Positions 4,426 to 10,525 of a DNA stretch of 47,877 bases are shown here, in pieces. Numbering within the stretch: position 1 is the stretch's first letter; each line of letters starts with the position of its first letter. Position numbers and translations under genes: made by a program. The stretch is from Sulfurimonas sp. (GTDB lineage: Bacteria > Campylobacterota > Campylobacteria > Campylobacterales > Sulfurimonadaceae): NCBI GenBank assembly GCA_002899765.1, contig PPDH01000040.1, positions 37,478-85,354 on the forward strand, read 5' to 3'. The notes beneath the pieces are model-generated. The model was not told where the DNA came from, ran no database searches, and saw only the letters and a program-made list of their open reading frames with translations.

Positions 4426-5064
4426 ATGCAATTAGGCTTCCTAGTTGATTTGCATCTGTGTATGGGATGTAAAGGGTGTGAAATCGCATGTAAAGTGGAA
4501 AATGAAGTTCCGCTAAGCACATGGAGACTTCGTGTTAAATATGTAGATGTGGGAACTTTCCCTGAGACAAAAAGAACATTTACACCGCTTAGATGTAACC
4601 ACTGTGAAAATGCACCGTGTGAGAGAATTTGTCCGGTTAGTGCGCTTCACTATCTTGAAAATGGTATTGTTAACATCGACAAAGAGCGCTGTATAGGTTG
4701 TGCGGGTTGTGTTATGGCCTGTCCTTACGGAGCGATTTATATCGACCCTCAAACGCAAACAGCAGACAAATGTACATACTGTGCTCACCGCGTTGCTTCA
4801 AGTATGATGCCTGCATGTGTAGTTGCTTGTCCCGTTCAAGCAAATATCTTCGGTGATTTGGAAGACCCGACTTCAAATATCTCTAAGTATATTCAAGTTA
4901 ATCAAAGTAATATACAGGTTCGTAAACCTGAAAAAGGTACAAATCCTCACCACTTCTATGTAAACGGCGGAAATGTTGCGCTTAATCCTCTGGCTTCGCA
5001 TAGAATAGAAGGACACTCTCTGTTTAACAAAATAACAACACTTCCAGTAGGAGGACACCATTAA
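4426..5064 (+). CDS. Four-cluster ferredoxin subunit of a molybdoenzyme (PsrB/PhsB/TtrB type)
   Basis: This is the electron-transfer subunit of a complex iron-sulfur molybdoenzyme. The 212-residue protein has four cysteine groups typical of four [4Fe-4S] clusters: CMGCKGCEIAC (from C12), CNHCENAPCERICP, CIGCAGCVMACP, and CTYC followed by the distant CVVACP. It has no signal peptide; such subunits are usually exported together with the Tat-dependent catalytic partner. Its stop overlaps the start of the NrfD-type anchor gene (TAATG). It is encoded first in a B-C-A arrangement. Family membership is certain; the substrate of the complex is not. Confidence 0.93.
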   Translation: MQLGFLVDLHLCMGCKGCEIACKVENEVPLSTWRLRVKYVDVGTFPETKRTFTPLRCNHCENAPCERICPVSALHYLENGIVNIDKERCIGCAGCVMACPYGAIYIDPQTQTADKCTYCAHRVASSMMPACVVACPVQANIFGDLEDPTSNISKYIQVNQSNIQVRKPEKGTNPHHFYVNGGNVALNPLASHRIEGHSLFNKITTLPVGGHH

Positions 5065-5963
5065 TGGCACATGAAATCTTAGCGGCGACAAATGCTGTAG
5101 TAACTTTAGATGTAGCGCTTCCCGGTATAGTTTGGCCGTGGTTAGTAACGGTTAATATGTGGGCAAAAAGTATCGGGACGGGTGTTATACTTATGCTTTT
5201 TATGCTTATTAGAATGCATCCTGATTCTGTAAAAAATTTAAGGCTGCCTACCGCTGTTGTCGCATTTATTTTTATAAATATTTTCTTACTCTTTACACTT
5301 GCCGATTTACATCAGCCTTTTAGAATGTGGCATATATTTGTTTACTCTAGCTTTTCATCCGCAATCGCTTGGGGTTCATTAATGGCTACGGTATTTTTAG
5401 GTCTTTTGGTAATTTTGGCATTTCTTGCATACAAGAAAAACAATGAAACATTTGACAAAGTATTGGTATGGACAACAATCCTGGCTATTCCTGTAACACT
5501 TTATACGGCTGCTCTTATGGCTCAGTGTACCGCTCGTGAATTGTGGCAAATGCCGACAGAGGCTGCTCAAATGATTCTTGCGGCTACACTTTCTGGTTCT
5601 GCTGCAATGATTTTACTCGGCGGAAGTAAACTTTCTGATGAAGCAAAAAACACTCTGGGTGTTGTTCTTGGACTTAGTGCATTAATGGCTTTTATAATCT
5701 ATATGTCGGAGTATATATTTGGACCTATGAAAGCAGAAGAGGTTGCCGCTGTTCTTGATTATATCAAAGGTGACGGACCGTATGCTGTTATGTTCTGGTT
5801 AGGTCAATGGATAGCTTACCTTTTACCGATGCTGCTTATTTTATTAAGCAGGGCTAGTAAAAGTGAAAGTATTTTAAAACTTGCAGCTATTTTAGCTTTG
5901 GTGGGTCTGGCTATAGTTAAACATGTATGGCTGATGATTCCACAATTATTACCAATGAGTTAG
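5064..5963 (+). CDS. NrfD/PsrC-type membrane anchor subunit
   Basis: The 299-residue protein has roughly eight transmembrane helices and resembles the NrfD/PsrC family. These proteins anchor the ferredoxin and catalytic subunits and exchange electrons with the quinone pool. Supporting features are the early GIVWPWLVTVNMWAKSIGTG stretch and the charged ADLHQPFRMWHIF loop after helix two, which matches the quinone-site region of this family. A strong GGAGG precedes the start, and the ATG overlaps the upstream TAA by one base. The catalytic subunit gene follows after 13 nt. The direction of electron flow, to or from quinone, cannot be told from sequence. Confidence 0.9.
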   Translation: MAHEILAATNAVVTLDVALPGIVWPWLVTVNMWAKSIGTGVILMLFMLIRMHPDSVKNLRLPTAVVAFIFINIFLLFTLADLHQPFRMWHIFVYSSFSSAIAWGSLMATVFLGLLVILAFLAYKKNNETFDKVLVWTTILAIPVTLYTAALMAQCTARELWQMPTEAAQMILAATLSGSAAMILLGGSKLSDEAKNTLGVVLGLSALMAFIIYMSEYIFGPMKAEEVAAVLDYIKGDGPYAVMFWLGQWIAYLLPMLLILLSRASKSESILKLAAILALVGLAIVKHVWLMIPQLLPMS

Positions 5964-5976
5964 GGAGAAGATTTTA

Positions 5977-8900
5977 ATGTATTTAGAAAGTAGAAGAACA
6001 TTTTTAAAAGGCGCTGCATTTACAGTTGCAGGTGCCACAATTGCTAAAGGTGTGTTTACGACCGATGCTATTGCAGATTCTGTTAGCCAAAGCAAGTTTA
6101 CAAACACTCCGGATTCTCTATCATTTTATCCTCCTATGGATCAGTGGTCTGATTTTAAAGAGTTAGACGGAGATGATTGGAAAAGAGGCGGTATAGACCG
6201 TCATGGCGTAAGAAGCGAATCAAACCCTGAGGGTATTGAAGTGAACGATTATGCTATCGTGCCAACTGCTTGTTCAAACTGTGAAGCATCTTGCGGTTTA
6301 ACTGCGTGGATTGACAAGAAAACTTTTACAGTTAAAAAGTATATGGGTAACCCGCTCCACCCTGCTTCTCGCGGTAGAAATTGTGCTAAAGGTTATGCAA
6401 CTCAATCTCAAATGTATGACCCGGATCGTATAGCATTCCCGCTTAAGCGTGCACCCGGTTCTGCTCGCGGTGAAGGTAAATGGATTCGTACCACATGGGA
6501 TGAAGCTATGACTACAATCGGTAATAAAATGCATGATGCAATAAAGGGTGACGATGAGTTATCTAAAAAATCATGTATGTTCCATGTAGGTCGTCCGAAT
6601 GAAAACGGATTTACCGGCAAGGTATGGCATACATTAGGACAAGACTCTTTTAACTCACATACAAATATCTGTAGTTCAGGCGGGCGTACACCGACAATCC
6701 AGTGGGCAAATGACGATAGAACTTCACCTGACTGGGCTAATGCAAAACTTGTTTTTCTTAACTCATCGCATGCTGCCGATGCGGGTCACTATTTTCAACA
6801 ATCAGCTTCGTTTATTGCAGATGCAAGAGCTAAGGGTGCTAAGCTTGTGGTTATGGATCCTCGTATGTCTAACTCGGCAGGTATGGCGGATTTGTGGATA
6901 GCTGCATGGCCTGGAACCGAGCCTGTAATTTATCTCTATTTGGCTCAGCGTATGCTTACTGAAGGCAAAGTTAATAAATCATTTGTAAAAAAATGGTTTA
7001 ACTGGGAAGTTATGATGGATAATAAAAATTATCTAAACTTTATGGTAGAAAAAGGATATATCTCTAAAGCGCCTTCAGGCAATGATTTTGACGCATTTGT
7101 TGATATGTTAAAAGAACTTTACGCTCCATATACACTTGATTATGCCGTAAAAGAGACCCATGTCCCCGCATATAAACTTGAAAAACTTTATGACATGTTT
7201 ATCTGGGCAGGAACTGCTATATCTTCATATTTCTGGAGAGCAACGGCAGCCGGTAACCGCGGTGGATGGATGAGTGGTCGTTCAGGTTATCTATCACTTG
7301 CTCTTCGTGGTGCTATTGGACCAGAAGGAGGAACATTCTTCCATCACTGGCATGTTATCTCTGTTGCAGGAAAGGGCGGAAGCGCTACTGTTGGACAAGG
7401 AAAACGTAGTGCAGATGTGCCTAAAATAGATGTTTACAATGAACTTACATGGCCGCCTGAGTGGCCTCTTTCCACTTATGAGTTATCGTTTCTTTTACCG
7501 CATCTTCTTGCAGATAAGAAGTGGCAGAAAAAATGGATAGATAGAGGTTTTAGCGTACAGCAAAAGCTGGCTGTTTGGATTCCTCGTATGTATAATCCTG
7601 TATGGATTAATCCTGATGGATTTAGATGGATAGATACTATTAAAGATGAATCAAAAATGGAACTTACATTTAATCTTTCTCCGGTATGGAGTGAGACTAA
7701 CTGGTATGTTGATTATATCCTGCCTGTAGGTCTTGCAGGTGAGAGACACGATCAGCACTCTGAAGCAACAATGCCGGCACGTTGGACATCTTTCCGTCAA
7801 CCTGTTATGCGTGTAGCTCTTGAAAAAGCAGGATGGAAACCGAAAAATCCAAATCGTGCGACATTAGAAGCACATATTAAAGCAGGTCTCGGTGAAGTTT
7901 GGGAAGAGAATGAATTTTGGTTTGACATGTGTGTAAATTATATAGATCCAAAAGGTGATATATTCCTAGATGCAGAAAAAACTAAAACTGTTAAATCAAT
8001 GTGGGTATCTAAAAAGAATCCTGGTAAGCCTGTTACTATTTCTGAATGGTATGATGCTGCATTTGGAGATAATCTGCCAAATCTTAAAGCAACGGCTACA
8101 TCTGATGAAAGATATAAAAATTCTGAATATCCTGTTTACGAATACATGAGAGATTATGGTGCATGGATGGAAGAGAATCATATCTACTCTGCTCAAGAGC
8201 GCGAGATTAAAGATGACGGTGAAAATTATATCTCTCACGGACATAAGTATGATAAAAAACATGTTCATATTAACAAAAGAACAGGTGTTATGACTGCAGA
8301 ACACAACGGTAAAAAAGTACCTATGGGTATTGAAATCGACGGTGTTAAGATGGAAGGGTTTGCAACGCTTGACAAGAAGCTTGACTTCTTCTGTGATTGG
8401 ATGGTAGATTGGAAATGGCCTGAGTACGCTATTCCGTTCTACCCAAGAAACGAGCAAGAGAAAAAAGAGATGGTTCATATTGTCTCACATGTAAATCACT
8501 CTTTTATGACTGAAAATAACTCGTATGCATTAAATACCGTATTTAGATTGCCGTATAATATTCATACTCGTTCAGCAAACTCTAAACACTTGATGGAGAT
8601 TTCGCAAAACCATGACCCTATCTGGATTTCGACTCCGGATGCTGCACGTCAAGGATTTAAGCGCGGGGATGCAATACGTGTTAGAATTGTAGACAGCTTA
8701 ACAGGATTGGAGTCAGGTTATTTTGTTGCTATGGCTGTTCCCACAGAGGGTGTTTTACCCGGTACACTGGCATGTTCGCACCATGGCGGACGCTGGAAGC
8801 TTGTTAACTCGGTAAGTATTCCAAACGGTGTTACAGACGGTAAAGTTGATTCTCAGCCAGTTGCCAGAAATATGAATGACCCTAAATTTATGGCACATTC

Positions 8901-9390
8901 ACCTATTAATGCAGGTAAAGAGGGTGGACAAATTAAGATTGAAGATTATAGCGGTCATGGCGGGATAAATAGCTTTGGTGTTCCTACTGCTGAACTTCAG
9001 ATGGACGGAAAAGAGGGTAAACTCAAATATGTTGAGGGTATCAAACCGTTTAAATCAGAAAGATTTGCAGACTATAATAAAGACAGCGGAAATATATGGT
9101 GGGATGGATTGAGCGGTTCATGGCAAAATGCCGTTGCCGCTCCGCATCCTGATCCGATTTCAGGTATGCACTGCTGGCATCAAAAAGTTATTTTAGAACC
9201 TGCGCAAGCCGGTGATAAAATAGGCGATATACATGTTAACTATGATAATAACTTTAAAGTTTATGAGGGATGGAGAGATAAGCTTACTCGCGGATTAGAT
9301 GAGAACTCTACACTTCGCCGTCCAAGACATATTAAACGTCCTTGGGTGCCTTTATCAGCTAAAGCATACGCGGTTAAAATTTCAAAATAA
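5977..9390 (+). CDS. Tat-exported molybdopterin oxidoreductase catalytic subunit (PsrA/SoeA/TtrA-like)
   Basis: This is the catalytic subunit of a DMSO-reductase-superfamily enzyme. A textbook Tat signal (SRRTFLKG, residues 5-12) sends it to the periplasmic side. The [4Fe-4S] motif uses C99, C102, C106 and C136. A cysteine at 232 in HTNICSSGG is the probable molybdenum ligand, as in polysulfide, thiosulfate and tetrathionate reductases rather than serine-type DMSO reductases. A molybdopterin dinucleotide-binding domain begins near residue 830. At 1137 residues it is much longer than classical PsrA/PhsA (about 750-800) and closer to the long TtrA/SoeA-type subunits. An extra stretch between about 650 and 830 is unassigned. 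Sulfur-compound reduction or oxidation is likely for this lineage, but the substrate is inference. Confidence 0.9.
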   Translation: MYLESRRTFLKGAAFTVAGATIAKGVFTTDAIADSVSQSKFTNTPDSLSFYPPMDQWSDFKELDGDDWKRGGIDRHGVRSESNPEGIEVNDYAIVPTACSNCEASCGLTAWIDKKTFTVKKYMGNPLHPASRGRNCAKGYATQSQMYDPDRIAFPLKRAPGSARGEGKWIRTTWDEAMTTIGNKMHDAIKGDDELSKKSCMFHVGRPNENGFTGKVWHTLGQDSFNSHTNICSSGGRTPTIQWANDDRTSPDWANAKLVFLNSSHAADAGHYFQQSASFIADARAKGAKLVVMDPRMSNSAGMADLWIAAWPGTEPVIYLYLAQRMLTEGKVNKSFVKKWFNWEVMMDNKNYLNFMVEKGYISKAPSGNDFDAFVDMLKELYAPYTLDYAVKETHVPAYKLEKLYDMFIWAGTAISSYFWRATAAGNRGGWMSGRSGYLSLALRGAIGPEGGTFFHHWHVISVAGKGGSATVGQGKRSADVPKIDVYNELTWPPEWPLSTYELSFLLPHLLADKKWQKKWIDRGFSVQQKLAVWIPRMYNPVWINPDGFRWIDTIKDESKMELTFNLSPVWSETNWYVDYILPVGLAGERHDQHSEATMPARWTSFRQPVMRVALEKAGWKPKNPNRATLEAHIKAGLGEVWEENEFWFDMCVNYIDPKGDIFLDAEKTKTVKSMWVSKKNPGKPVTISEWYDAAFGDNLPNLKATATSDERYKNSEYPVYEYMRDYGAWMEENHIYSAQEREIKDDGENYISHGHKYDKKHVHINKRTGVMTAEHNGKKVPMGIEIDGVKMEGFATLDKKLDFFCDWMVDWKWPEYAIPFYPRNEQEKKEMVHIVSHVNHSFMTENNSYALNTVFRLPYNIHTRSANSKHLMEISQNHDPIWISTPDAARQGFKRGDAIRVRIVDSLTGLESGYFVAMAVPTEGVLPGTLACSHHGGRWKLVNSVSIPNGVTDGKVDSQPVARNMNDPKFMAHSPINAGKEGGQIKIEDYSGHGGINSFGVPTAELQMDGKEGKLKYVEGIKPFKSERFADYNKDSGNIWWDGLSGSWQNAVAAPHPDPISGMHCWHQKVILEPAQAGDKIGDIHVNYDNNFKVYEGWRDKLTRGLDENSTLRRPRHIKRPWVPLSAKAYAVKISK

Positions 9391-9440: not shown

Positions 9441-9938
9441 TTATAAGCCTGCCCACCACATCCTAAGCCATAATCCAAAAGTACTTGTGTATCCCACTTC
9501 ACTAAATATTACATTTCCCTTTTTATCGTAAATAATAGTTGTGGGAAAAATTGCGACATTAAATTTTTGAGTAATTGAGCCGTCATAATCATTCACAACT
9601 TTAAAATTAAAATTTCTATTTTTTAAATACTCTTCTAACTCTTCATCGCTTCCTGATTTAAGTGCTACGGTTATAACGTTATATTTTTGTGATATTGTTT
9701 GAATGTTTGAAGCTTCTGCTTTACATGTAGGACACCAAGTTGCCCAAAAATGGATTAGGAGGGGTTCATTTTTGGGCAAAGTATAGAAGCTGCTATTTAA
9801 AAGCTCAAATGTTGAGATATTTAATTTATCTTTATTTAACTCCTGACTTCTATATAGGCTTAAAATATTTGCAAATATTGTCATAACAACAATAAAAAGA
9901 ACTATCTCTTTAAAATAGTAAATAATCTTATTTTTCAT
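9441..9938 (-). CDS. Membrane-anchored thioredoxin-like disulfide oxidoreductase (ScsD/TlpA-like)
   Basis: The 165-residue protein has an N-terminal membrane anchor (about residues 10-30) and a periplasmic thioredoxin domain. The active site is ATWCPTCKAEA (C69, C72), with a cis-proline in IFPTT (P132). The C-terminus (LWLRMWWAGL) resembles ScsD, the copper-stress-linked thiol oxidoreductase, more than cytochrome-maturation CcmG. It probably reduces or exchanges disulfides in periplasmic proteins. The gene is divergent from a NosL-like lipoprotein gene 86 nt away, and that copper-linked neighbour supports a shared metal or thiol role. The partner is unknown. Confidence 0.85.
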   Translation of the reverse strand: MKNKIIYYFKEIVLFIVVMTIFANILSLYRSQELNKDKLNISTFELLNSSFYTLPKNEPLLIHFWATWCPTCKAEASNIQTISQKYNVITVALKSGSDEELEEYLKNRNFNFKVVNDYDGSITQKFNVAIFPTTIIYDKKGNVIFSEVGYTSTFGLWLRMWWAGL

Positions 9939-10024
9939 AAACCATCATGATATTGTCAAAATTTTGTCATTTTAACACTTTTGTAATTATCTATTGCTAT
10001 TATTATACAAAGAAAAGGATGATT

Positions 10025-10525
10025 ATGTATAAGATAGTAACTTCATCAGTCTTAGCACTGATGCTAATTGGCTGTAGCTCTGAAAAAGGTGTTACATATA
10101 AATCTACCATGTTTCAGAGTGTAAATGAGAAAGAAGCTGTTTTGCTTCAAGACGGGAAGAACAAAAACTACTGTTATAAATGTGGCATGGATTTGGTTAA
10201 ATATTACAAGACAAGCCATAGTGCAACTGATAACTCAAAAACATATCAATACTGCTCAATTCACTGTTTAGAAGGGCATTTAAATGATGGAGTAGTGCTC
10301 AAGAATCCTAAAGTGGTAGATGTAGAGAGTTTAAAGTTTATAGACAGCACAAAAGCTTATTATGTAGTAGGAAGCAAGAAAAGCGCAACTATGAGCAGAA
10401 TCAGTAAATATGCTTTTTATAATGAAGATATGGCAAAAAAATTTCAAGCGCAACATGGCGGAGAGATTATGGACTTTTATAAAGCTCTGGATATTGCTAA
10501 AAAAGATTTTAAAAACTATAAGTAG
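10025..10525 (+). CDS. NosL-like lipoprotein (first of two)
   Basis: NosL proteins are outer-surface or periplasmic lipoproteins that bind Cu(I) and help assemble nitrous oxide reductase. I place the start at ATG 10025, which follows an AAAAGG site and gives a clean lipoprotein signal with lipobox LIGC (C17). An upstream ATG at 9947 would destroy this signal. Candidate metal ligands are C50 and C53 of YCYKCGM, plus C77, H80 and C81 of YCSIHC. No nos operon is nearby, so copper delivery to another enzyme, or a redox role, is possible. It is clearly paralogous to the protein at 30394-31092. Confidence 0.83.
   Translation: MYKIVTSSVLALMLIGCSSEKGVTYKSTMFQSVNEKEAVLLQDGKNKNYCYKCGMDLVKYYKTSHSATDNSKTYQYCSIHCLEGHLNDGVVLKNPKVVDVESLKFIDSTKAYYVVGSKKSATMSRISKYAFYNEDMAKKFQAQHGGEIMDFYKALDIAKKDFKNYK

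Follow-up and report, generated by a model that had tools for sequence, protein, structure and literature searches.

Reductases of the PsrABC/PhsABC type combine a molybdenum, an iron-sulfur (Fe-S) and a membrane subunit, the last an NrfD-type anchor as in PsrC, with a cysteine molybdenum ligand, export by the twin-arginine translocation (Tat) system and an outward-facing active side (PMC8076601, in part). The sulfite:quinone oxidoreductase SoeABC is also a quinone-linked Mo/Fe-S/NrfD complex, with a proposed sulfur-oxidizing role and a cytoplasm-facing catalytic side (PMC8076601), and TtrABC, whose TtrA model spans 1022 positions, is a third point of comparison. We analyzed an operon with this three-subunit plan in a 47,877-nucleotide stretch of Sulfurimonas sp. 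DNA (GenBank assembly GCA_002899765.1, contig PPDH01000040.1, positions 37,478 to 85,354; hereafter the window). We read its product as a molybdoenzyme of dissimilatory sulfur metabolism that is quinone-linked, faces outward into the periplasm, belongs to an uncharacterized clade and would work mainly in the oxidative direction, a reading based on sequence comparison to which we assign a probability of roughly 0.4.

The operon and the clade of its catalytic subunit

The operon anatomy is well supported. Three neighboring open reading frames (ORFs) on the forward strand encode, in B-C-A order, an Fe-S subunit (B, 4426 to 5064, 212 aa; Pfam Fer4_11), an NrfD/PsrC-type anchor (C, 5064 to 5963, 299 aa; Pfam NrfD, hydrophobic segments, and lysine and arginine counts) and a catalytic molybdopterin subunit (A, 5977 to 9390, 1137 aa; Pfam and family trees), with the start of C sharing one base with the end of B and A starting 13 bases past C. 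Because 77 of the 96 loci, the window among them, kept the same arrangement (the remaining 19 showed contig-end cuts, fused B and C, or ORF-caller misses), the operon is no chance run of ORFs, and the B-C-A molybdoenzyme operon proposed from the window alone was confirmed. Pfam matches above cut-off (Fe4S4, molybdopterin, dinucleotide-binding, Fe-S and NrfD domains) place the complex in the DMSO reductase, or complex iron-sulfur molybdoenzyme (CISM), superfamily with an NrfD anchor. Subunit B has 16 cysteines, for which four [4Fe-4S] clusters are expected by homology, and its top NCBIfam model was TtrB, at 199 bits under a 416-bit cut-off.

Counting as carriers those genomes with a best E-value below 1e-50, we found the catalytic gene in 108 of 298 genomes of Campylobacterales, including all 29 of the Sulfurimonadaceae, the family of the window. 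Named relatives among the best 80 of 184 matches included Sulfurimonas, Sulfuricurvum and Ca. Thiovulum karukerense, and 55 of the 80 were Sulfurimonas or Sulfuricurvum, both genera of sulfur chemolithotrophs. Plasmids of Rhodococcus jostii RHA1, Thermomicrobium roseum and haloarchaea carry more distant full-length relatives (33–37% identity), and a relative from Azoarcus KH32C shares 26% identity with A. In a 43-row tree, the window A grouped with 10 other Campylobacterota rows, five distant rows and the Azoarcus row (support 100/99), separate from the PhsA, TtrA-like, ArrA-like, DmsA and NasC/NapA-like rows and from a 900-aa PhsA-related group scoring 320–344 bits with the PhsA model. The same clade was recovered in a 55-row tree, 12 rows of which (four divergent single rows and eight from groups still represented) were left out of the smaller one; both trees were built without SoeA, SreA, ArxA, and the PsrA of Wolinella and Thermus. 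Groups were named by NCBIfam scores, the PhsA rows lying above cut-off and the TtrA-like and ArrA-like rows below theirs.

Curated models gave a concordant picture. Twenty NCBIfam models matched A, none at its cut-off: PhsA scored 121 bits against 694, ArrA 69 against 1600 and TtrA 46 against 1750; the TtrA model was above cut-off in none of 120 genomes. Score and tree position thus both place A outside PsrA/PhsA, the Wolinella and Thermus PsrA not being among the rows of the tree. The nearest PDB sequence was 2vpw (98 bits over residues 96–340), named a thiosulfate reductase and part of the Thermus thermophilus Psr set. Approximately unbiased (AU) tests rejected a sister relationship of the A clade to PhsA (p-AU 0.002) and to the 900-aa group (6.7e-67); sisterhood with the TtrA-like rows, whose branches are long, was not rejected (p-AU 0.452), and the ArrA-like rows shared a wider group with the A clade (94/94). 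The A clade is therefore well supported and appears to lie in no characterized clade among those sampled. Clustering inside a characterized clade with the same enlarged segment was not what we found: the clade that shares it is uncharacterized as far as we could find, and literature passages covering the Sulfurimonas homologues contained no biochemical test of it.

The operon is not new to the field, since Sulfurimonas homologues already carry the labels psrA or PSR (PMC4584964, PMC9122950). By distribution and subunit set, the "PSR" genes of Sulfurimonas and Sulfurovum, and a three-gene operon of Thiovulum comprising nrfD and genes labeled narB and ttrB, are probably the same genes; the Thiovulum operon looks like the B-C-A layout, and its nrfD is transcribed and was read as polysulfide-reducing (PMC9938260). 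Membership of the PhsA clade does not support the "PSR" label, as judged from our trees, and the name "polysulfide reductase" influences the interpretation of metatranscriptomes (PMC9122950).

Orientation and candidate function of the complex

Two concordant signs, the Tat signal and the charge pattern of the anchor, support an outward-facing topology for the window enzyme. An RRxF[LIV]K or RRxFMK motif lies near the N-terminus of 77 of 80 family A proteins, the other three being cut by contig ends, whereas by eye the annotated starts of the distant rows, in which B and C form a single fusion, showed no Tat-type signal. The C anchor has eight hydrophobic segments, taken as hydropathy peaks of our family alignment rather than from a trained predictor. 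Lysine plus arginine (K+R) was in excess in the odd loops of all 79 Campylobacterota-type anchors and of the Azoarcus anchor (9 vs. 2; locus read by its annotated coordinates), but in the even loops of all five distant anchors (9–14 vs. 1–3), and the pattern held with the anchor ends left out; a sixth, haloarchaeal locus (L183), which yielded no usable anchor ORF, was outside this count. By the positive-inside rule, B and A would face outside in Campylobacterota and Azoarcus, and inside in Rhodococcus, Thermomicrobium and haloarchaea. The clade thus appears to hold complexes of both orientations, which we propose here; we met no report of this in literature searches that hardly touched export, and a similar inversion has been predicted for SoeC (PMC8076601). 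Two orientations within one clade offer a natural comparison of what sets the topology and energetics of NrfD-type complexes. The Tat signal and outward anchor also distinguish the window enzyme from SoeABC, which lacks a signal and faces the cytoplasm, as the sister group appears to do.

Several of the distant relatives have neighbors that suggest a link to persulfide and sulfite handling. At the RHA1 locus we found two rhodanese/metallo-beta-lactamase fusions (persulfide-dioxygenase type), TusA and a DsrE2-like protein (77.6 bits, below the 210 cut-off); Natrinema caseinilyticum had one such fusion plus TauE, Halomicrococcus an annotated rhodanese plus TauE, and Thermomicrobium only a CsoR-type repressor. 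The five sister-row organisms are usually regarded as aerobes. In the electron path that we propose, the [4Fe-4S] clusters of B would connect the molybdenum site of A with a quinone on the outer side of C. The enzyme would act mainly oxidatively, feeding the quinone pool from an externally released sulfur compound. Candidate substrates are sulfite, a polythionate-type oxyanion or polysulfide-derived sulfane, in a role resembling that of SoeABC, which is thought to work from inside. We favor, with modest confidence and with both substrate and direction inferred, such an oxidation over H2-driven polysulfide reduction. The sulfur-compound substrate suggested earlier is probably right.

Periplasmic polysulfide or sulfur reduction with menaquinol from hydrogenase or formate dehydrogenase is the field's annotation (PMC4584964, PMC9122950, PMC10045233) and agrees with the outward topology, as in PsrABC, with PhsA and 2vpw as the top model and structure for A, and with an above-cut-off NiFe hydrogenase in 65 of 80 carriers tested; we nevertheless consider it unlikely given the low PhsA score and the rejected PhsA sisterhood. 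In a 61-genome sample, moreover, the 13 genomes with an above-cut-off PhsA and the 14 carriers did not overlap at all, although both follow family lines. The hydrogenase scan covered 80 chosen carriers of the 108 (79 of them ≥90% complete and ≤5% contaminated, with some complete carriers left out), and 15 lacked an above-cut-off enzyme (seven had no match and eight weak matches only), among them all four tested genomes of the family holding Ca. Thiovulum karukerense, which makes H2-driven polysulfide respiration unlikely as the general role. A polythionate or thiosulfate enzyme (tetrathionate reductase or thiosulfate:quinone type), or a part in sulfur disproportionation, would fit the TtrB match of subunit B, the TtrA-like sisterhood left standing by the AU test, and the Campylobacterota isolates that disproportionate sulfur compounds (PMC9948710, PMC12403661; presence of the gene in these isolates was unchecked). 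We regard it as improbable in view of the 46-bit TtrA score of A and of TtrA-like rows that sit on long branches and themselves fall below that cut-off. An arsenic, selenium or nitrogen oxyanion is the least probable substrate class: the superfamily is catalytically diverse (PMC10100899) and a wider group unites the ArrA-like rows with the A clade, but sulfur genes adjoin several sister operons, the ArrA score is 69 bits against 1600, and the named relatives are mostly the two sulfur-chemolithotrophic genera counted above.

Several observations weigh against a mainly oxidative role. The sister enzymes, from aerobes, appear to be oriented inward and may therefore use a different substrate, and the Natrinema halophilum locus had only an Mrp neighbor. 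Co-occurrence with Sox is partial: soxB or soxC was above cut-off in 65 of 108 carriers vs. 51 of 190 non-carriers (uncorrected for relatedness). The prevalence of NiFe hydrogenase among carriers fits reduction, and carriers without it could use formate. The Psr, Ttr and Arr complexes that face outward work as reductases (PMC8076601). All sequenced Sulfurimonas carry PSR homologues, and S. denitrificans has no sorAB and does not grow on sulfite (PMC4584964), which, provided that its PSR homologue belongs to the A clade, argues that sulfite is not the substrate. In S. indicum, psrA1B1C1, possibly of the A family, was highly transcribed and 1.21- to 2.10-fold up under S0 reduction, though not significantly (PMC10045233). 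One of its PsrAs has a conserved cysteine at 247, as does one family member (G151), but this identification is uncertain because the 247 cysteine is listed second and the S. indicum PsrAs are said to have no Tat motif (PMC10045233), a motif present in our family. A Black Sea study saw no direct coupling of psrABC expression to sqr and soxCDYZH and interpreted the expression as S0 reduction (PMC9122950).

Strict dependence on Sox was considered and rejected, as neither soxB nor soxC was above cut-off in 43 of the 108 carriers. All five genomes of the family that includes Ca. Thiovulum karukerense had the catalytic gene and none had soxB or soxC. In Thiovulum, none of the known S0-to-sulfate routes was found, and oxidation of its stored sulfur was left open (PMC9938260); the enzyme is a candidate for this step. 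A broader proposal, which we hold to be doubtful, is that the clade represents a new kind of quinone-linked sulfur-compound dehydrogenase existing in two opposite orientations, the outward form supplying the missing Sox-independent oxidation of sulfur intermediates in Thiovulum and other sulfur-oxidizing Campylobacterota without Sox.

The enlarged linker of the catalytic subunit

The predicted cysteine ligand and Tat signal of A were both recovered. The Tat signal region covers residues 1–35 (5977 to 6081, forward strand, as for all features of A), with SRRTFLKG at residue 5 and RRxF[LIVM]K in relatives, and is followed by a [4Fe-4S] domain at residues 94–147 (6256 to 6417; Pfam Molybdop_Fe4S4; Cys 99, 102, 106 and 136). 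Cys232, in HTNICSSGG (6670 to 6672), is the predicted molybdenum ligand by homology and was invariant in both a 33-row alignment and a 20-row family alignment. The C-terminal cofactor-binding domain occupies residues 857–958 (8545 to 8850; Pfam Molydop_binding), and the C-terminal part, residues 959–1137 (8851 to 9387), includes a W1049–K1070 block conserved in the 33-row alignment.

The segment at about 650–830 had been described as an insertion unexplained by known domains. Pfam spans residues 94–147, 151–592 and 857–958 and leaves 593–856 uncovered, in line with that description; however, a profile-profile alignment with the PhsA family continues across residues 610–830 with scattered gaps and stops only at residue 1007. 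Between the motifs ..DYILP and ..KKLDF, the window A has 213 residues. The spacing was 197–217 in those Campylobacterota rows that the pattern matched (13 of 14, window included) and 187–229 in all five distant rows. Outside the family it was 95 in a Halomicrobium enzyme, 116 in DmsA and 123 in the PhsA of an E. coli plasmid; most non-family rows, like one family row, escaped the pattern, so that the outside comparison consists of these three. Because the alignment runs through the segment and the spacing is 213 against 123 and 116, the sequences indicate that the "insertion" (residues 584–796, 7726 to 8364, by profile alignment and motif spacing) is the canonical linker that precedes the C-terminal cofactor domain, enlarged by about 90 residues in several loops, and not a separate domain. 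The same comparison indicates that the enlarged linker is common to the A family. A is also longer near its N-terminus and past residue 1007. Conservation in the linker was strong near its start (G639–E646 block) and weakest at residues 736–790, where identity with three distant rows was 13–24%. Structure prediction from the 33-row alignment gave a mean predicted local distance difference test (pLDDT) score of 50.7, too poor to describe the linker or to support a fold search.

The TorD-polyferredoxin module and additional loci

In many genera the operon is extended by a module that we describe here as accompanying the A clade. Among the 96 loci, many of them cut short so that the counts come from partial loci, we found a TorD-like protein at 33 (Pfam Nitrate_red_del), a 365-aa polyferredoxin at 35, a shikimate-dehydrogenase-like protein at 30 (Shikimate_DH match only below cut-off) and a 164-aa protein at 30; the Azoarcus operon likewise encodes a matching polyferredoxin. 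TorD and polyferredoxin homologues were present in all 20 carriers tested, with the polyferredoxin spread over two frames in one of them (G039). Near the window operon the module genes were absent, but in the same genome the TorD, polyferredoxin, shikimate-dehydrogenase-like and 167-aa genes lie on another contig (C36:4434-7474, L206), followed by one further ORF and then pgpA- and sulfate-adenylyltransferase-type neighbors as in Sulfuricurvum. The module stood apart from the B-C-A genes in 13 of 14 same-genus genomes tested (two of them having both on one contig, but separated), a pattern that suggests a split of the operon. Elsewhere, a 958-aa molybdoenzyme is followed by a second, diverged TorD/polyferredoxin pair (L209, G003:C1, 5180-12673), suggesting that such pairs serve more than one type of molybdoenzyme.

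A group of 758- to 779-aa molybdoenzymes was examined as a stand-in for SreA or SoeA and rejected, as it groups with NasC/NapA and, in genome G016, adjoins by eye a 638-aa reductase-like ORF. At that locus (L166, 787-8031) a 521-aa Fe-S protein, a signal-less 766-aa molybdoenzyme and the 638-aa ORF lie side by side; the 766-aa group might be the psrA2B2 of published papers, yet it falls with NasC. On a Sulfurovum mangrovi plasmid (L038, 8001-11302) the catalytic gene was found as three tblastn pieces with no coding sequence listed there, likely a sequencing error or a broken gene. The genome of the window encodes a second Tat-signaled molybdopterin subunit, of 949 aa, together with an Fe-S subunit, a TorD-like gene and small ORFs (L123, G000:C44, 2048-10804). 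Downstream of the operon, at window positions 9441-10525, are a TlpA-like thioredoxin and a NosL-like protein, as in the window's subclade; these occur at 39 and 29 of the 96 loci, respectively.

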